Shown here one piece after another: positions 40,283 through 47,683 of a stretch of 64,000 bases of DNA. A program made the position numbers and the translations under genes. This DNA is from Pseudomonadales bacterium (lineage in GTDB: Bacteria > Pseudomonadota > Gammaproteobacteria > Pseudomonadales > Azotimanducaceae). Positions within the stretch are counted from its first letter, which is position 1, and each line of letters starts with the position of its first letter. Under the pieces are notes generated by a model that was not told the origin of the DNA, searched no databases, and saw nothing but the letters and a program-made list of their open reading frames with translations. The stretch covers positions 558,001-622,000 of the forward strand of contig WLWP01000001.1 in NCBI GenBank assembly GCA_012103505.1. Reading direction: 5' to 3'.

Positions 40283-43200
40283 GTGGAAAAACAGCTTATT
40301 GAAGGCGATCGGCTATACCTAATTGCTGAAAGTCTTGCCAAAGATTTCTCCCTATTTCCCGACGTCAAACAAGAAGAAAAGCCGATTCCTGGACTGCTCA
40401 GTCAGGGTGAGATCGCTCGTTTCAACGATCATCTCGTTGGTCTTGATATCGATGCCTACATTGAAACAGTTGTCGACAATGCCAACGATCAGTCTCGTAC
40501 CCCAGCACCGGAAGTAATCCGCAAACTTGGACGCGTCGTCGAAGAAGAATCAAGCGGGCCCTATTTCCAAGCAACCATGACGTTAGATTTTGGTGACGGT
40601 GGCACACGGATGGTCGGGTTCGTCGCGCAGGATCGGAGCCGTGAACTCGGTAGTTGGGGTCCTGAACACCATCTACGAGCGGCACAGTTTGCTGAACTGT
40701 GCTCGAATCGGTCGATTCCCATGGTGACCTTCATGGACACGCCAGGGGCGAATGCCAAAGAAGAAGCGAACGCGAACAACCAAGCTCACAGTATTTCGCG
40801 ACTCATCGCTGAGATGAGCAATTTGGACGTACCTAGCGTGGGTGTGATTTACGGACTTGGCTACTCAGGGGGTGCGATTCCCTTAGCTGCGTCCAACATG
40901 ATTCTCTCGCTCAGAGATGGTGTCTTCAGCACAATCCAACCCAAGTCGCTTGCCAATATTGCGCGTCGGCTAAATCTGTCTTGGCAAGAATGTGCGAAAT
41001 ACGTGGGCTTGTCCCCGGCGCAGTTACACGAACAAGGCAATATCGACGGTATTATCGATTACTCACCTGTGGATGGTGATGAAAAGCTAGAAAATCTGCG
41101 CCAAGCGATCGTTGGCAGCATTCGCAATGTTGAAACTCGCGTGACCGAATTTGTTGCGGAAAATCCTTACATCCTCGACCACTACCGGCAAAGCCTGCAA
41201 AGGTACTTAACACCATCGCCTCAGTTGCGAGCGATGCAAACGTCAGCCTCGCTAAAACTGACAAAGAACCCGACCGAATATTTGAATGTCTTCGGAGTCG
41301 CATTTCGATATATGCGCTACCTCGCTGTGCGGAAGAGGATCAAAGCGACAACGACTCAGCAGTACGGTCGCCTTGCTGACCAGGAAATGCCCAAAGGGGA
41401 GTTGAACGTTCGGGCTGACCGTGAGCGACGCCAGACTTTTCTAAACTGGCTGCAGGACCCGGACAAAGTGTTGTACGACGATACGCTGTCGAAAGCATGG
41501 CGTAACTACAACGACAAACGCCAAGCGCTACATGATGAGCGCGGCCGGATCGCCCAGCTAATATTTGGTGAACCAAAACAGAATTATGAAGATGCCAGAG
41601 CAACGCTGTTGTCCTCCGTTGGGGTCTTTCTCTATAACCGCTGGAAAGGTGAGTCCGTCGGCAATCTACGGGCTCTGCGCGAATACTTGTTCAACCACGA
41701 AGACACCCGGCAGATTCTCAAAGTAGACGATATAGAAAATGCGCGTGGCTTGGTGCAGGCCTTGAATCGCGACCCAGAAATGGTTGGAATTCTGCGCGAG
41801 CGCTTTTCTTACGAAGGTAAGAAGCTTATCGCTCTAAAAGGTCTGGACGACAAGAATGACAGTTTTGTCGCGAAGCTCATCACATCGGAGCTAAATCTTG
41901 CACTGACTGGTCCCGCCATGATGGGTATGACTAACGCTACTGATATCCAAAGTAACCGCGCCCTTCTGCACGCTCGCTTTCCGCAATTCATAAGCGGTGT
42001 TGAAGGTGGTGGCAAACCAGTCGCCCTTACCGACATGACTGTGTTGGATGTCTTGTTAGACGATGAGTTGCGTAATGACTTTATTCGCGAATGTGAGAAC
42101 CTGCTCTTGTTCGATTCAGTCTATGACCAAGTAATAGCCAATTTGGATTCCATTGCCGAGGAAGCCAAGACAGATCAAGTGCTCTCTGAAGCATCTATGT
42201 CACAATTGCTTGAGACGACTTTAAACCTTGCAGTCTCAGGTTTGACGATAGAACCGGTCGGCGGAGCGATGAAGCCCACTGCGGATCAGCTTCGCGATCA
42301 GATAGTTGATTGGTACTTACGCATCCAGAAGCATGCCAAAGGCAGCGACTTTTTCCGCCAAGTGGAAGAGTGGAAGAAAGTTAGTTTTCCTCATCTTGCT
42401 GATGCGCTTTTTGTCGTTGTCACTTACCTCTTCGATAACTTACTTGCTTCCTACATCGAATCTGTCCGCGACAATAAGACATATCAAGGTCGCATTGCGC
42501 CTAAAAACATAGGCCGGCGTAAGGACTTTTGGAATCGGCTAGACATGGCGTACAACGATTTGTTGATGCAAAACGTACTTCGTCGCCAGAAGAACACCAA
42601 CCGATTTGATTACACAGACATCATTGAGCGCTACTTAGAAGATTTCGAGCCTCGGTTCGATGAGCTACTCAGCTCAGATCCATGTTCCTTCCCAGGTTTT
42701 CGAATATCCATCGAAGGAGCGTTGAACAAAGGGTTGCCGCCATGCGGCATTGTTGCGGGGTACGGTACGCTAAAGGGCGGCGATCGCCATCGCGTTGGTG
42801 TACTTGTTTCCAACGTGTCCTTTCAAGCAGGTGCATTCGATATGGCGAGCGCAGAAAAGTTCTGTCGTTTGTTAGTCGAGTGTGCGGAACAACACCTGCC
42901 GGTAGTTTGTTTCGTTTCGTCGGGTGGGATGCAAACGAAGGAGGGTGCGGGTGCATTGTTCTCGATGGCTGCAGTCAATGATCGGATCACAAGGTTTGTC
43001 CGCGACCACGACTTGCCGGTGATAGTGTTCGGTTTTGGCGATTGCACAGGTGGTGCTCAAGCTAGTTTCGTAACGCACCCACTGGTGCAGACGTTCTATT
43101 TTTCAGGTACCAGCATGCCTTTTGCTGGTCAACTCGTTGTGCCTTCCAACCTGCCACTCAACTCCATATTGTCGAATTACCTTTCTGCAACTGAAGGGGC

Positions 43201-45139
43201 TATGCAGGGGTTGGTACAACATCCGTTCTTCCCAACATTGGATGAAGATTTGCGCGCCATTGACCCTGCCATACCGGTTGCAGTCGAGACTGCCGAAGAG
43301 GCTATGGAGAGGGTACTTGGGGGTGGTTTTGCGGATCAACGGCCGGTTGTCGTTGCTCATCGTCCGGTATACACGGAAACTGATTTAGAACGACCCGTAA
43401 AGAAAGTTTTAATTCACGCACGCGGTTGTACTGCAGCGAAATTAATCCGCATCGCACAGAACAACGACATCAATGTCGTGCTCGTGCAGTCTGACCCTGA
43501 CATGGAGTCCGCGGCAGTAGATCAACTCCGGGAACAGGACTCTGTTGTCTGTATCGGCGGAAATACACCTGACGAGAGCTACCTTAACGCCATGAGCGTG
43601 TTGAGCGTTGCCGAGAATGAAGGCGTAGATAGCCTTCACCCCGGTATTGGTTTTCTCTCAGAAAATTCCGCCTTCGCGGAACTCGTTCGTCGACACGGGA
43701 TTAACTTTATAGGACCGTCCGTAGCCTCGATGGAGACGATGGGTAACAAAAGTAACGCAATTAATACCGCGTTGCGTCTTGAGGTTCCGGTGGTCCCAGG
43801 CAGTCATGGCATCATGACCAATCCCGAGCGCGCGGCTGAAGTTGCTGAAGATATTGGCTATCCGATCCTGATTAAGGCGGTGCATGGTGGCGGTGGTAAG
43901 GGCATTCAAGTTGTTGAATCCGGCGACAACTTCGTTGAGCTCTTTCATCGGGTGACCAATGAAGCACGCAGTGCGTTTGGTAATGGCGACGTCTACCTAG
44001 AGAAGTACGTGACTTCTTTGCGGCATATTGAAGCGCAATTATTGCGTGATGCGCACGGCAACACCCATGTACTTGGTATCCGCGATTGCAGTGTACAACG
44101 CGACAAGCAGAAGGTTATCGAGGAATCAGGTTCGACAATGTTGCCACCAGACCTCTTGGCGACGGTTAAGCGCAGTACAGCAGCGATAGCAGATGAAGTT
44201 AACTACGTGGGTGCGGGGACAGTCGAGTTTATCTACGACTTAAAGTCCAATGCTGTGTATTTCATGGAAATGAATACACGTCTCCAAGTTGAGCACCCAG
44301 TCACAGAGTGGACATCGGGAATCGATATCGTTTCCCAACAATTCAATATCGCGGGCGGCGGTTCGATTGCAGATATAGAAGTCGTAGAAAATGGCTATTC
44401 GATCGAGGCCCGGGTTAACGCTGAGCGGGTTCAGCAGATGAGTGACGGAGAGCTTGTGTTCCGGCCGCACCCTGGTGAGATCGGCGACTGCACATTCCCC
44501 GAAGATGAAGGGGTTGAGATCATTGCAGCTGCAGCCGCTGGAAAGTTTGTCTCCCCTTACTATGACAGCATGGTCGCCCAAGTCGTCGTACACGCTGAGG
44601 ATCGCAACGCCGCGATCGCGAAGCTTGACGAGTACTTACGTCGGGTCGAGATTAACGGGATCTGTACAAACATTCCGCTGTTACGACGTATTTTGAAAGA
44701 TGATGTCTTCATCGACGGTGTGTACGACACTAATTATTTGCCTGAGATGCTGCAGCGATCTGATGTCGCCACGCTGATCAGCGAAATCGAAGCGTCTGCG
44801 GGTGATGGCGGTATCGGAATCGACATTGAGAGTATCCAGATTGAAGAAAGCGAGGAATTGAAAGTGCTTGCTCCGGCGACTGCGATTTTCTATTCAACGC
44901 CGTCTCCTTCAGAGCCCGAATATGTCACTGTGGGTGATAAAGTCTCCCTACAACAGACTCTGTGTCAGCTAGAAGCGATGAAGATTTTCACGCCTCTGAC
45001 GTTAGGTGACTTTAACGGTGACGTCGAACTCTATGAGAACATTGAGTTTGAAGTTACACGAGTCAACATGAGTAATGGACAACAAGTTAACGTGGGCGAT
45101 CTTTTGTTTGTTGTGAAGCCTATCAAGACCGATGCCTAG
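40283..45139 (+). CDS. single-chain biotin-dependent acyl/acetyl-CoA carboxylase with permuted domain order
   Basis: 1618 residues, GTG start without a clear Shine-Dalgarno sequence. Order seen: residues ~90-290 AccA-like carboxyltransferase (MDTPGANAKEE at ~151, GLGYSGGAIP at ~191); ~300-800 a helical region without recognised motifs; ~805-1010 AccD-like carboxyltransferase (CFVSSGGMQTKEGAG at ~875, GDCTGGAQASF); ~1037-1480 biotin carboxylase (HPGIGFLSEN, ATP loop HGGGGKGIQVV at ~1200, MEMNTRLQVEHPVTE at ~1328); ~1535-1618 biotin carrier with LEAMKIF, biotinyl Lys1567. It should carboxylate a short acyl-CoA, most likely acetyl-CoA to malonyl-CoA. The alpha-before-beta order and BC-BCCP at the C-terminus differ from eukaryotic ACC and from bacterial LCC. 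Substrate is inferred. Confidence 0.85.
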   Translation: MEKQLIEGDRLYLIAESLAKDFSLFPDVKQEEKPIPGLLSQGEIARFNDHLVGLDIDAYIETVVDNANDQSRTPAPEVIRKLGRVVEEESSGPYFQATMTLDFGDGGTRMVGFVAQDRSRELGSWGPEHHLRAAQFAELCSNRSIPMVTFMDTPGANAKEEANANNQAHSISRLIAEMSNLDVPSVGVIYGLGYSGGAIPLAASNMILSLRDGVFSTIQPKSLANIARRLNLSWQECAKYVGLSPAQLHEQGNIDGIIDYSPVDGDEKLENLRQAIVGSIRNVETRVTEFVAENPYILDHYRQSLQRYLTPSPQLRAMQTSASLKLTKNPTEYLNVFGVAFRYMRYLAVRKRIKATTTQQYGRLADQEMPKGELNVRADRERRQTFLNWLQDPDKVLYDDTLSKAWRNYNDKRQALHDERGRIAQLIFGEPKQNYEDARATLLSSVGVFLYNRWKGESVGNLRALREYLFNHEDTRQILKVDDIENARGLVQALNRDPEMVGILRERFSYEGKKLIALKGLDDKNDSFVAKLITSELNLALTGPAMMGMTNATDIQSNRALLHARFPQFISGVEGGGKPVALTDMTVLDVLLDDELRNDFIRECENLLLFDSVYDQVIANLDSIAEEAKTDQVLSEASMSQLLETTLNLAVSGLTIEPVGGAMKPTADQLRDQIVDWYLRIQKHAKGSDFFRQVEEWKKVSFPHLADALFVVVTYLFDNLLASYIESVRDNKTYQGRIAPKNIGRRKDFWNRLDMAYNDLLMQNVLRRQKNTNRFDYTDIIERYLEDFEPRFDELLSSDPCSFPGFRISIEGALNKGLPPCGIVAGYGTLKGGDRHRVGVLVSNVSFQAGAFDMASAEKFCRLLVECAEQHLPVVCFVSSGGMQTKEGAGALFSMAAVNDRITRFVRDHDLPVIVFGFGDCTGGAQASFVTHPLVQTFYFSGTSMPFAGQLVVPSNLPLNSILSNYLSATEGAMQGLVQHPFFPTLDEDLRAIDPAIPVAVETAEEAMERVLGGGFADQRPVVVAHRPVYTETDLERPVKKVLIHARGCTAAKLIRIAQNNDINVVLVQSDPDMESAAVDQLREQDSVVCIGGNTPDESYLNAMSVLSVAENEGVDSLHPGIGFLSENSAFAELVRRHGINFIGPSVASMETMGNKSNAINTALRLEVPVVPGSHGIMTNPERAAEVAEDIGYPILIKAVHGGGGKGIQVVESGDNFVELFHRVTNEARSAFGNGDVYLEKYVTSLRHIEAQLLRDAHGNTHVLGIRDCSVQRDKQKVIEESGSTMLPPDLLATVKRSTAAIADEVNYVGAGTVEFIYDLKSNAVYFMEMNTRLQVEHPVTEWTSGIDIVSQQFNIAGGGSIADIEVVENGYSIEARVNAERVQQMSDGELVFRPHPGEIGDCTFPEDEGVEIIAAAAAGKFVSPYYDSMVAQVVVHAEDRNAAIAKLDEYLRRVEINGICTNIPLLRRILKDDVFIDGVYDTNYLPEMLQRSDVATLISEIEASAGDGGIGIDIESIQIEESEELKVLAPATAIFYSTPSPSEPEYVTVGDKVSLQQTLCQLEAMKIFTPLTLGDFNGDVELYENIEFEVTRVNMSNGQQVNVGDLLFVVKPIKTDA

Positions 45140-45174: not shown

Positions 45175-45906
45175 TCACGCCAGAAGTAGTCGAATTCCTT
45201 GGACCAAACAGATGGTCGCTATTGCCAGAATTATGATCTGGCTGACTTTCTGAAACTGCACGTCACTCCATTTCTCCAGAATCAATGTTCCTGCTCGAGT
45301 CCCCGCGACAGCTACGGTCATGGCGATTGCTATGAACCAGATATCAAACTGGGCGGCCACGCCAATGAAAAATCCGTAGTAGAGAATCTTGATCAAGTGT
45401 CCCAATGTTTGGGTGAGCGCTTTGTTCGCGACGATCTCATGACGGGTCAAGGGCGTGTTGAGATAGAAGACGTCAAGAAGTGGCCCTGACGCACCAGCCA
45501 AAAGTTGCGCTGATGTGACCACAACCCCGCAGGAGATTGCGGTCAGAGGATTCAGGACATCTAGACCTTTTAGCCGTTTACTTAGACGTGCAAGCCAGGG
45601 AAACAGGCCAACAAGTACCAAAACAACGCCGGGGTGTGGAACGATGGCAACCAGCATAAAGGCAACTAGGGCGATAGCTGCGCCCACGGCGTAGTTGGGC
45701 AATATGTCCCAGCGGATGTGTTGGCGTAGGAACCAGGCTCGGGATCCGTTCGCCGTCGCCTGAACTGCGCCATGCAAGATCATTGCACCGGCTACCGACG
45801 ATAAGGATACGAGGACAGCCATCAAGATCATTCCGCCAGCCATCCCCACGATGCCTGAGAGCAAACTGGTCAAGAAGACGGTGACTAGAATTAGCGCGTA
45901 GAACAT
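45175..45906 (-). CDS. TauE/SafE-family membrane transporter
   Basis: 243 residues with about seven to eight hydrophobic helices. The first helix region LLSGIVGMAGGMILMAVLVSL and the internal repeat with LAGASGPLLDVFYLNTPLTR match the sulfite exporter TauE/SafE (UPF0721) family, which moves sulfite, sulfoacetate or related organosulfur anions. It is divergent from the LysR regulator (67-base gap), which probably controls it. Substrate unknown. Confidence 0.85.
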   Translation of the reverse strand: MFYALILVTVFLTSLLSGIVGMAGGMILMAVLVSLSSVAGAMILHGAVQATANGSRAWFLRQHIRWDILPNYAVGAAIALVAFMLVAIVPHPGVVLVLVGLFPWLARLSKRLKGLDVLNPLTAISCGVVVTSAQLLAGASGPLLDVFYLNTPLTRHEIVANKALTQTLGHLIKILYYGFFIGVAAQFDIWFIAIAMTVAVAGTRAGTLILEKWSDVQFQKVSQIIILAIATICLVQGIRLLLA

Positions 45907-45979
45907 TTGAACAGCTTAAACAATGAAAAAAGAGAATAGCTGGAATATGATTAAGTCCTATCTGTAAAGGACAGTGGTC

Positions 45980-46834
45980 GTGATCGAAAATCTTGAAACG
46001 CTCGTCGCTCTCTACAAGGAAGGTACGATGATGGAGGCGAGCACTGCGCTAAAAATTTCGCAGTCCGCGGTGAGTAAGCGGATCGCCAATCTCGAGCGCT
46101 ACTATGATCGCAAATTGATTGAACGACATGGGCGTCGAGTCGTCCTAACGTCCCATGGCACCCGGTTGGTTGAGAAAGTCACGCCGCTTCTTTCTGAACT
46201 GCGTAGTGTGTTTCTCGAGGACCAAGCGTTGCGCAAAGGCCGAATCATTATGGGTGTTTCGGAAGCGATTCTGGCCAGCTGGGGACCCAGGCTTTTTTCT
46301 GAAGCAGGTGATAGGTTGCCAGGTATCGAGTTCGAGTTTCATGCCCAGCGCTCGCCTGTAGTATTGGATCGCCTTCGGTCTGGTGAGTATATGGTCGGTA
46401 TCTGTACAGGCACGCCGGACGCGGATACTGACCTCGTCAGTGAAGTCATACGTGAAGAACCCATGGTGATTGTCCCTTCTGGACTGAAGCCCTTGGATTA
46501 CACGCCGGGTGAGTCGCTCAACGTCATTACGATCGAGTCGCGGTCCGGTGCATGGGCTTCTATCGAAGAGGCGATGAGCGAGCTGAATCTACAACGTAGT
46601 GTGTCCTTAGAATCGTTCTTCTCTGTGGCACAAATGGCTATTGCTGGATTTGGACATGGCCTCATACCCGCGGGTGTTGCTCGTACATTGGGTGTGGCGG
46701 GTGACGATGTGATTCCCGTGGCTAAATATGGCATTACGCGGCCGGTTCGCTTCGTTGCGCGTAAGTCGATGTTTGCTCAGGAACTGGTGCGCTCGTTCTA
46801 CCAAGAAGTTAAAACACTTGCCGCGGACGTTTGA
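45980..46834 (+). CDS. LysR-family transcriptional regulator
   Basis: 284 residues from the GTG at 45980, preferred to that at 45974 because AAAGGA then lies nine bases upstream. The winged helix-turn-helix spans residues 1-60 (LETLVALYKEGTMMEASTALKISQSAVSKRIANLER), followed by a periplasmic-binding-like effector domain (~85-284: GRIIMGVSEAILASWGP, MAIAGFGHGLIPAGVAR). It lies between a divergent TauE-type transporter and the downstream selenoprotein and probably regulates one or both. Confidence 0.9.
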   Translation: MIENLETLVALYKEGTMMEASTALKISQSAVSKRIANLERYYDRKLIERHGRRVVLTSHGTRLVEKVTPLLSELRSVFLEDQALRKGRIIMGVSEAILASWGPRLFSEAGDRLPGIEFEFHAQRSPVVLDRLRSGEYMVGICTGTPDADTDLVSEVIREEPMVIVPSGLKPLDYTPGESLNVITIESRSGAWASIEEAMSELNLQRSVSLESFFSVAQMAIAGFGHGLIPAGVARTLGVAGDDVIPVAKYGITRPVRFVARKSMFAQELVRSFYQEVKTLAADV

Positions 46835-46900: not shown

Positions 46901-47683
46901 ATGGAACCAATCAGTTACGTCGACGCGCTCAATGAGCACTACGGATCGCTCGGGTTTCCGCCATATGAGTGGACGATTAATGAGACAGCACCACTCACTC
47001 ACCTAGATAAACCATTGCAGGAATGCCGGATAACGATCCTGACCTCTGGCGGCGTTTCACACTGCACAATGCCTGGGTTCGAAGCCGATGCGCGTAATGA
47101 CCATCGTCTCGATGCGGTGGCAGGAGATGTAAACACTGGTGATTTCGCCATTAACGACAGCTATTACAACCACAGCGATGCTGATGAAGACCTGAATTGC
47201 GTTTTTCCAATTGATCGTTTGCGCGAAATGGCAGCTGCTGGGGAGATCGGCAGCATTGCGCCGAGATTCTGGAGTGGTTTCATGGGCAGGATCTACAACC
47301 GAACCAAGGTGATCCAGGAATCCGCACCGGCGTTTGTCGAAAAGCTTAAGGAGGACGGTGTTGATATATTATTAGCAGCCCCTGCCTGACCACTCGATCA
47401 CCAAACCGTTGGTTTGGTATGCCGAGTTGTAGAGCAAGCTGGTATCGCCACAGTCTGCTATTCCACGGGGAGAGATCTGACCGCCCAGGTAAAGCCACCG
47501 CGCAGTTTGTTTGTGAATTTTCCGATGGGAAACAATTTTGGTGGGCCGGGCGACATCGCCGCCCAAAATCGAATTTTACAGCGCGGACTCGACCTCCTGG
47601 ATGAAGTGCAAGAAGGTGGTGCGTTGGTGGACTGGCAAGAACAGTGGCCGGAACCTGTGGTTTACTTCACGGGTCGAGGCTAG
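46901..47683 (+). CDS. selenoprotein, glycine/betaine/sarcosine reductase B-like family (UGA read as selenocysteine)
   Basis: 260 residues if the single in-frame TGA (47387-47389, codon 163) is read as selenocysteine; otherwise translation stops at 162. AGGGAG lies six bases before the ATG. The reading frame continues without break for 97 codons after the TGA to TAG. Conserved family features lie on both sides: LTSGGVSHCTMPGFEADARNDHR, NHSDADEDLNCVFPIDRL and VDILLAAPA before it, then PLDHQTVGLVCRVVEQAGIATV after, giving LAAPA-U-PLDHQTVGL, where relatives have U or Cys at the same place. A bacterial SECIS-like hairpin begins two bases after the TGA. The classical GrdB/PrdB enzymes are clostridial reductases; the reaction of this standalone proteobacterial form is unknown. 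The window holds no selA, selB, selC or selD. Confidence 0.85.
47387..47427 (+). promoter_or_regulatory. predicted bacterial SECIS element
   Basis: Right after the TGA the RNA can form a two-tier hairpin. The upper stem is eight perfect pairs, ACCAAACC (47400-47407) with GGTTTGGT (47411-47418), closed by the loop GTT. The lower stem is five pairs, ACTCG (47392-47396) with CGAGT (47423-47427), separated by a small internal loop (ATC/ATGC). Eighteen bases separate the UGA from the loop, and the loop starts with G followed by U, both as expected for SelB-binding bacterial SECIS elements. Confidence 0.8.

Follow-up and report, generated by a model that had tools for sequence, protein, structure and literature searches.

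The window, a 64,000-nucleotide stretch of the genome of a Pseudomonadales bacterium, carries a PrdB/GrdB-like selenoprotein gene on the forward strand at 46901-47683. The frame opens with ATG, closes with TAG and encodes 260 residues when its only TGA (47387-47389, codon 163) is read through. Frame translation and the alignment of related sequences place selenocysteine (Sec) 163 at the head of a U-P-L-D motif, in the context LLAAPA-U-PLDHQTVGLVC; no second TGA occurs in the frame. Translation thus confirms the original prediction of a single TGA in an otherwise intact frame, as well as its expectation that automated annotation would split the gene: table 11 yields two ORFs of 162 and 89 aa.

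A LysR-type regulator gene (45974-46834, + strand; PF00126 and PF03466) lies 66 bp upstream and may regulate, or be co-transcribed with, the selenoprotein gene. Divergent from it is a TauE/SafE-like transporter gene (45175-45906, - strand; PF01925, 36.3 bits). Both neighbors were rejected as pathway members because, among 24 other loci, only the one from the closest relative (G027) has them; its TauE/SafE gene is 89% identical. A TauE/SafE-family gene is also present in the true prd cluster of an Enterococcus raffinosus plasmid (L097:6384-6663), which may be coincidence. A 1618-aa ORF at 40283-45139 (+ strand) combines acetyl-CoA-carboxylase-type carboxyltransferase, biotin carboxylase and biotinyl domains; it is 95% identical in G027 over the 1257 residues present on that contig. 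The LysR gene itself terminates in TGA (46832-46834), so TGA remains a stop codon in this genome. A change of the genetic code (TGA = Trp) is ruled out by this neighbor together with the Sec machinery of the genome.

A search of 206 genomes of the family, own genome included, gave close homologues (E <= 1e-60) in 31, and all 31 have exactly one internal TGA, which excludes chance or sequencing error. The motif was read in 33 clade members, i.e., 30 of the 31 family holders for which a locus was fetched plus three sequences from other phyla. PLDHQTVGL directly follows the TGA in every one of them (the P codon of one row has an N). Sense-codon variants of this clade were not found at E <= 1e-60 in 369 genomes of the class or in the 206 family genomes. 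Comparisons with eight relatives bear out the earlier statement that protein sequence of the family lies on either side of the TGA. At synonymous sites the differences reach or approach saturation (pS 0.69-0.91), but nonsynonymous differences are few, both before (pN 0.12-0.24) and after (pN 0.17-0.24) the TGA, and strong purifying selection acts on the codons of either side in all eight comparisons. Since pS is saturated and pN is low on both sides, the stretch after the TGA is selected as protein. A pseudogene or an assembly error, with the TGA terminating translation and only the 162-residue part being made, would agree with the two ORFs of table 11. It is extremely improbable in view of the one TGA in 31 of 31 homologues, the same motif in the 30 family sequences read, the selection on either side, and the conserved hairpin and full Sec machinery described below.

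The genome (5.82 Mb in 21 contigs, completeness 99.1, contamination 6.6) contains each of the four Sec genes that the original prediction had proposed to search for, all scoring over their cut-offs: selA (541 bits, cut-off 268), which adjoins selB (401.6 bits, cut-off 242), selD (253 bits, cut-off 125), and tRNA-Sec (71.7 bits, cut-off 47). All are located on the contig of the window. SelD (L072:1450-3609) is fused to a pyridine-nucleotide oxidoreductase domain and scores 468 bits to the "oxidoreductase/SelD-related fusion" model (cut-off 700). The alignment column of codon 163, which had been proposed as a check for Cys or Sec, holds Sec in three plasmid-borne true PrdB proteins (UGTC) and Cys in homologues from Roseomonas and Haematobacter (CPVC, CPIC). 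The Sec machinery, the Sec/Cys column, the conserved hairpin and the TGA of all 31 homologues back the original prediction of a selenoprotein; on this comparative evidence, the gene almost certainly encodes a true selenoprotein with Sec at codon 163.

A SECIS-like apical hairpin is found 3' of the TGA at 47400-47418 (+ strand). Its 8-bp stem (47400-47407 with 47411-47418) starts after a spacing of 10 nt and encloses a 3-nt loop, GUU, which is GUU or GUG among the aligned members. It thus has the G in a small apical loop that serves as a criterion for bacterial SECIS elements (PMC1088965). In an alignment of 15 sequences (the window and 14 of 17 contig loci, excluding L051, which has an N, and two distant loci, L064 and L065) the apical stem is 99.2% paired. 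Six of its eight pairs are invariant, and one is lost in a single sequence. One pair alternates between A-U (eight sequences) and G-C (seven), always matched, through silent CAA/CAG and TTG/CTG changes. For a structure with two helices, the covariation score is reached by only 3 of 500 shuffles; the count of pairs with both bases changed (220/500 shuffles as high) and that of further pair types (480/500) show no excess. The lower stem is 71% paired and is left out by RNAalifold, which keeps the apical stem. The full two-helix SECIS was therefore dropped and the claim is limited to the apical hairpin.

Synonymous variation among 11 members has its minimum for the gene at codons 166-174: the 8-codon windows starting at codons 166 and 167 show 0.30, compared with a mean of 0.61 (sd 0.09), and the next-lowest value is 0.37 at codon 83. 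When seven further members were folded, the identical 8-bp hairpin was obtained in six and a 7-bp hairpin in L062. Their fold z-scores range from -0.55 to -2.79, weakly better than shuffles in some; that of the window's own hairpin is -2.42. In the UxxC paralogue L066 the hairpin is 6 bp long and no more stable than shuffles (z 0.18). The RF00031 (SECIS_1) model finds no match in the own genome, and none in the control genomes either.

The nearest family model is TIGR04483 (PrdB), which matches residues 30-243 over model positions 18-228 of 238. The score of 135.7 bits is well short of the equivalog cut-off of 300, a true PrdB scoring 422.6 bits, and the protein does not qualify as a D-proline reductase PrdB. 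Four GrdB-type NCBIfam models give 32-36 bits, and the cut-offs for GrdB proper are missed (TIGR01917, 32.3 of 602.2 bits; TIGR01918, 33.4 of 65.45 bits); all five matching NCBIfam models score under their curated cut-offs. PF07355 is passed with 33.2 bits (gathering score 22), the match being confined to the last third of the model (215-341 of 347). Because the PrdB and GrdB scores fall under the cut-offs and PF07355 lies over its own, the protein is, by its profile matches, a member of the GRDB superfamily nearest to PrdB and below the PrdB equivalog level. The "GrdB-like" assignment of the original prediction therefore holds for the superfamily (PF07355) but not for the nearest relative, which is PrdB (135.7 bits) rather than GrdB. 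With PrdB the window protein shares the aligned column of Sec and the match over residues 30-243; it differs in having UPLD instead of UGTC and no PrdA that could be found. With GrdB and the fluoroacetate reductase FarB, whose Sec is proposed to be the nucleophile (PMC10838667), it shares PF07355, but it lies under the TIGR01917 and TIGR01918 cut-offs and no PF09338 partner was found.

The Roseomonas and Haematobacter homologues (annotated "glycine/sarcosine/betaine reductase selenoprotein B family protein") are 32-34% identical over 90-95% of the query. They too have no prdA or grdE annotated in the stretch shown, but they carry Cys at both motif positions and form a separate branch of the tree. 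These Cys forms of the family reside on plasmids (L093:7968-8876, L094:7965-8891), where the Roseomonas copy adjoins a gene annotated SelO. A search of PDB sequences gave a pheromone-binding protein as the best match (E 0.069), taken as chance. A PDB fold search with a predicted model (pLDDT 85.8) gave no match at E <= 0.001; the top two had TM scores of 0.32 and 0.35.

The original prediction had noted the absence of glycine reductase partners, and for the pyruvoyl subunit this is borne out. PF09338 (GrdE/PrdA), a model that recognizes a true PrdA with 79 bits, has no match in a whole-genome profile search of the own genome; the control genomes were also silent, so the absence of PrdA is probable rather than proven. 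Two true PrdA proteins, used as tblastn queries against the window and 24 loci of relatives, gave no match at E <= 1e-3; as a positive control, the Terrisporobacter PrdA finds the Enterococcus PrdA at 63% identity. A strict D-proline or amino-acid reductase, one that needs an unrecognized pyruvoyl or other partner subunit, is a rather improbable alternative. In its favor, PrdB is the best family match, and PF09338 was judged absent by a single profile search of the genome with silent controls. The sub-cut-off PrdB score, the empty PF09338 and PrdA searches, and the UPLD motif in place of UGTC all speak against it.

The motif sets the protein apart within its family. In all 33 clade sequences UPLD replaces the UxxC that is expected of PrdB, with Asp166 (codon 47396-47398) where the family has its second, resolving Cys. 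A tree was built from 42 rows chosen by us (18 UxxD, 22 UxxC and 2 CxxC; L065, L067 and L068 with long-branch warnings). Its UxxD rows form one clade with a support of 100/99, and all 24 remaining rows have Cys at the second motif position. Besides Sec, there are no invariant cysteines across the 33 members. The best conserved is Cys100 (codon 47198-47200), present in 32 of 33 and replaced by Thr in the actinobacterial member, followed by position 42 (29/33) and position 55 (29/32). Cys at position 100 is found in two of 21 UxxC paralogues; one has T there, and the other 18 have V, A or S. This pattern suggests that the resolving Cys may have moved to position 100; against such a relocation, two of three true PrdB proteins have Cys at position 100 and retain UxxC. 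The Asp at the second motif position had been missed by the original prediction, as had the methyltransferase co-occurrence described next.

Two genes recur as partners of the UxxD gene. Neighbor clustering of 25 loci finds a methyltransferase gene (PF00891) beside it in nine, and an SDR cluster of ten loci, seven of which have the partner type; the SDRs of L049, L057 and L078 fall in that cluster but are unrelated to the partner type and were set aside. Of the 206 genomes, the 31 with the UxxD gene have the methyltransferase (E <= 1e-60) in 22 cases and the 175 without it in 8 (Fisher p 3.6e-16, odds ratio 51, by a test that ignores kinship and genome size). The genes for the selenoprotein and the methyltransferase lie <= 1.1 kb apart in 10 of the 22 genomes that have both. 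In L052, L054, L055 and L056 the end of the selenoprotein ORF, as called, runs into the start of the methyltransferase ORF; in L082 the order is reversed, and the end of the methyltransferase ORF overlaps the start of the selenoprotein ORF. In L052, L055 and L056 the order selenoprotein-methyltransferase-SDR occurs on the same strand with overlapping ORF calls; in L074 and L075 the SDR sits between the other two genes and points back. Of 24 genomes examined, 13 have an SDR within ~1.5 kb of the methyltransferase; the three from outside the family are not among them. Neither partner is found beside the UxxC paralogues (0/18 loci, flanks up to 1.5 kb).

Other observations weigh against a link. 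Nine holders have no methyltransferase and eight non-holders have one. In the own genome, the methyltransferase and SDR genes are a divergent couple ~400 kb from the selenoprotein gene. In favor of a link, the methyltransferase is present in eight of 13 genomes reached via contig loci, including both Myxococcota and the actinobacterial one; it is absent in five. At least five of the 13 (G097, G099, G101, G102, G103) coincide in contig positions with genomes of the family set; the surely new evidence is therefore limited to the three genomes from other phyla. On balance, a functional link of the selenoprotein with the methyltransferase is very probable, and one with the SDR is fairly likely. 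As seen in G010 (L111), G041 (L120) and G043 (L128), the methyltransferase can also stand apart from its partners: in L111, of which 15 kb was read, no SDR is nearby, some genomes have no UxxD gene, and in G043 the methyltransferase is split across two reading frames. G054 has a further, broken methyltransferase copy at E <= 1e-30.

A thiol-redox housekeeping role, similar to that of thioredoxin- or peroxidase-like selenoproteins in protein protection or repair, would make the methyltransferase and SDR bystanders. The Sec lies within a short redox motif, and PrdB is grouped with thiol-dependent redox selenoproteins in Table 3 of PMC1088965. The distant methyltransferase/SDR pair of the own genome and the nine holders that do not have the methyltransferase point the same way. 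The loss of the second motif Cys argues against a disulfide cycle, however, and the co-occurrence and gene overlaps argue against bystanders. In addition, the family precedents use small substrates (PMC10838667; PrdB and GrdB in PMC13188914), and the presence of the gene is patchy (31/206 genomes). A housekeeping role is therefore considered unlikely. The reading that we favor, at slightly better than an even chance, makes the protein a stand-alone selenol reductase that cleaves an activated C-X bond and belongs to a distinct UxxD clade; reductive C-X cleavage as such is proposed tentatively.

Sec is the nucleophile in both proline reductase and glycine reductase. A stand-alone selenol reductase might work as follows. 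SelB and tRNA-Sec would insert Sec at codon 163, steered by the predicted hairpin at 47400-47418. The U163 selenolate would attack a carbon activated by a neighboring carbonyl, or a heteroatom on that carbon, and expel the leaving group. By analogy, the attack would resemble the proposed action of glycine and proline reductases without the pyruvoyl subunit. Asp166 may tune or protonate, and the oxidized or substituted selenium could be resolved by Cys100 or by an outside thiol, replacing the lost motif Cys. The SDR might supply or consume the activating carbonyl, with the methyltransferase possibly capping the product or the leaving group. A precedent is FarB, a GrdB relative proposed to cleave a C-F bond (PMC10838667). 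That the UxxD clade forms a one-selenium class of reductases with no pyruvoyl partner, a resolving Cys at position 100, and a three-protein pathway with methyltransferase and SDR for C-X cleavage is, taken as a whole, doubtful. If true, the pathway would act on an ether, thioether, halide or amine C-X bond adjacent to a carbonyl, and would do so outside the anaerobic amino-acid fermenters, the organisms from which the function of the PrdB/GrdB family is known.

Reports of PrdB-type selenoproteins in seawater metagenomes go back to 2005; these proteins were the third most frequent selenoprotein family in the Sargasso Sea set, with 42 genes, and 235 sequences were found in the GOS set (PMC1088965, PMC2398784). 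Like the window gene, these are TGA-encoded PrdB homologues, abundant in seawater, but their published motif is UxxC, and the available parts of the two papers mention no UxxD branch or methyltransferase/SDR link. Compared by descriptions rather than sequences, the Sargasso and GOS "PrdB" probably include the UxxD clade or its UxxC paralogues. UxxC is also the motif given for the family in reviews from 2022 and 2026. In the literature on PrdB/GrdB-like and Pseudomonadales selenoproteins, as far as it is openly available (subscription papers fall mostly outside this scope), neither the UxxD branch nor the methyltransferase/SDR link was found. The "undescribed redox function" of the original prediction thus stands with respect to function, but not with respect to the kind of protein, which is common in seawater data (PMC1088965, PMC2398784). 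The novelty appears to lie in the branch, with its UxxD motif and partner gene. The proline reduction assigned to the seawater PrdB proteins was carried over from anaerobic clostridia (PMC1088965, PMC2398784). With its altered active-site motif, its Sec present in all members read and its specific partner gene, the branch offers a handle on what such proteins do.

The gene is not the lone GrdB-like selenoprotein that had been predicted; the genome carries seven PrdB/GrdB-type genes, with one TGA each. One is the UxxD gene, three of similar length (open frames of 289-313 aa) have UPVC, and three longer GrdB-like genes have UPVC, UPNC and UPLC. Thus, as many as seven such genes can occur in one genome, each cut in two by the standard code. 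Matches at E <= 0.001 are present in 58 of 97 genomes (own included), with one TGA each among the matches listed. The UxxD clade itself occurs in one of 369 genomes drawn from the class, which is the own genome; beyond the family, the members read are from two Myxococcota and one Actinomycetota. At L066:6924-9412 (G000:C6 near 783692-784399), a UPVC selenoprotein gene is immediately followed by a gene for an M81/MlrC-like metallopeptidase, perhaps overlapping. This neighbor scores 185 bits to MlrC (cut-off 999) and recurs in one of 18 UxxC loci (L037, 70% identical). At L069:6402-10381 (G000:C6 near 2136378), a longer GrdB-like TGA gene is flanked by a DUF3604 gene (797 bits) on one side and a gene for a TauD/TfdA-type dioxygenase on the other.
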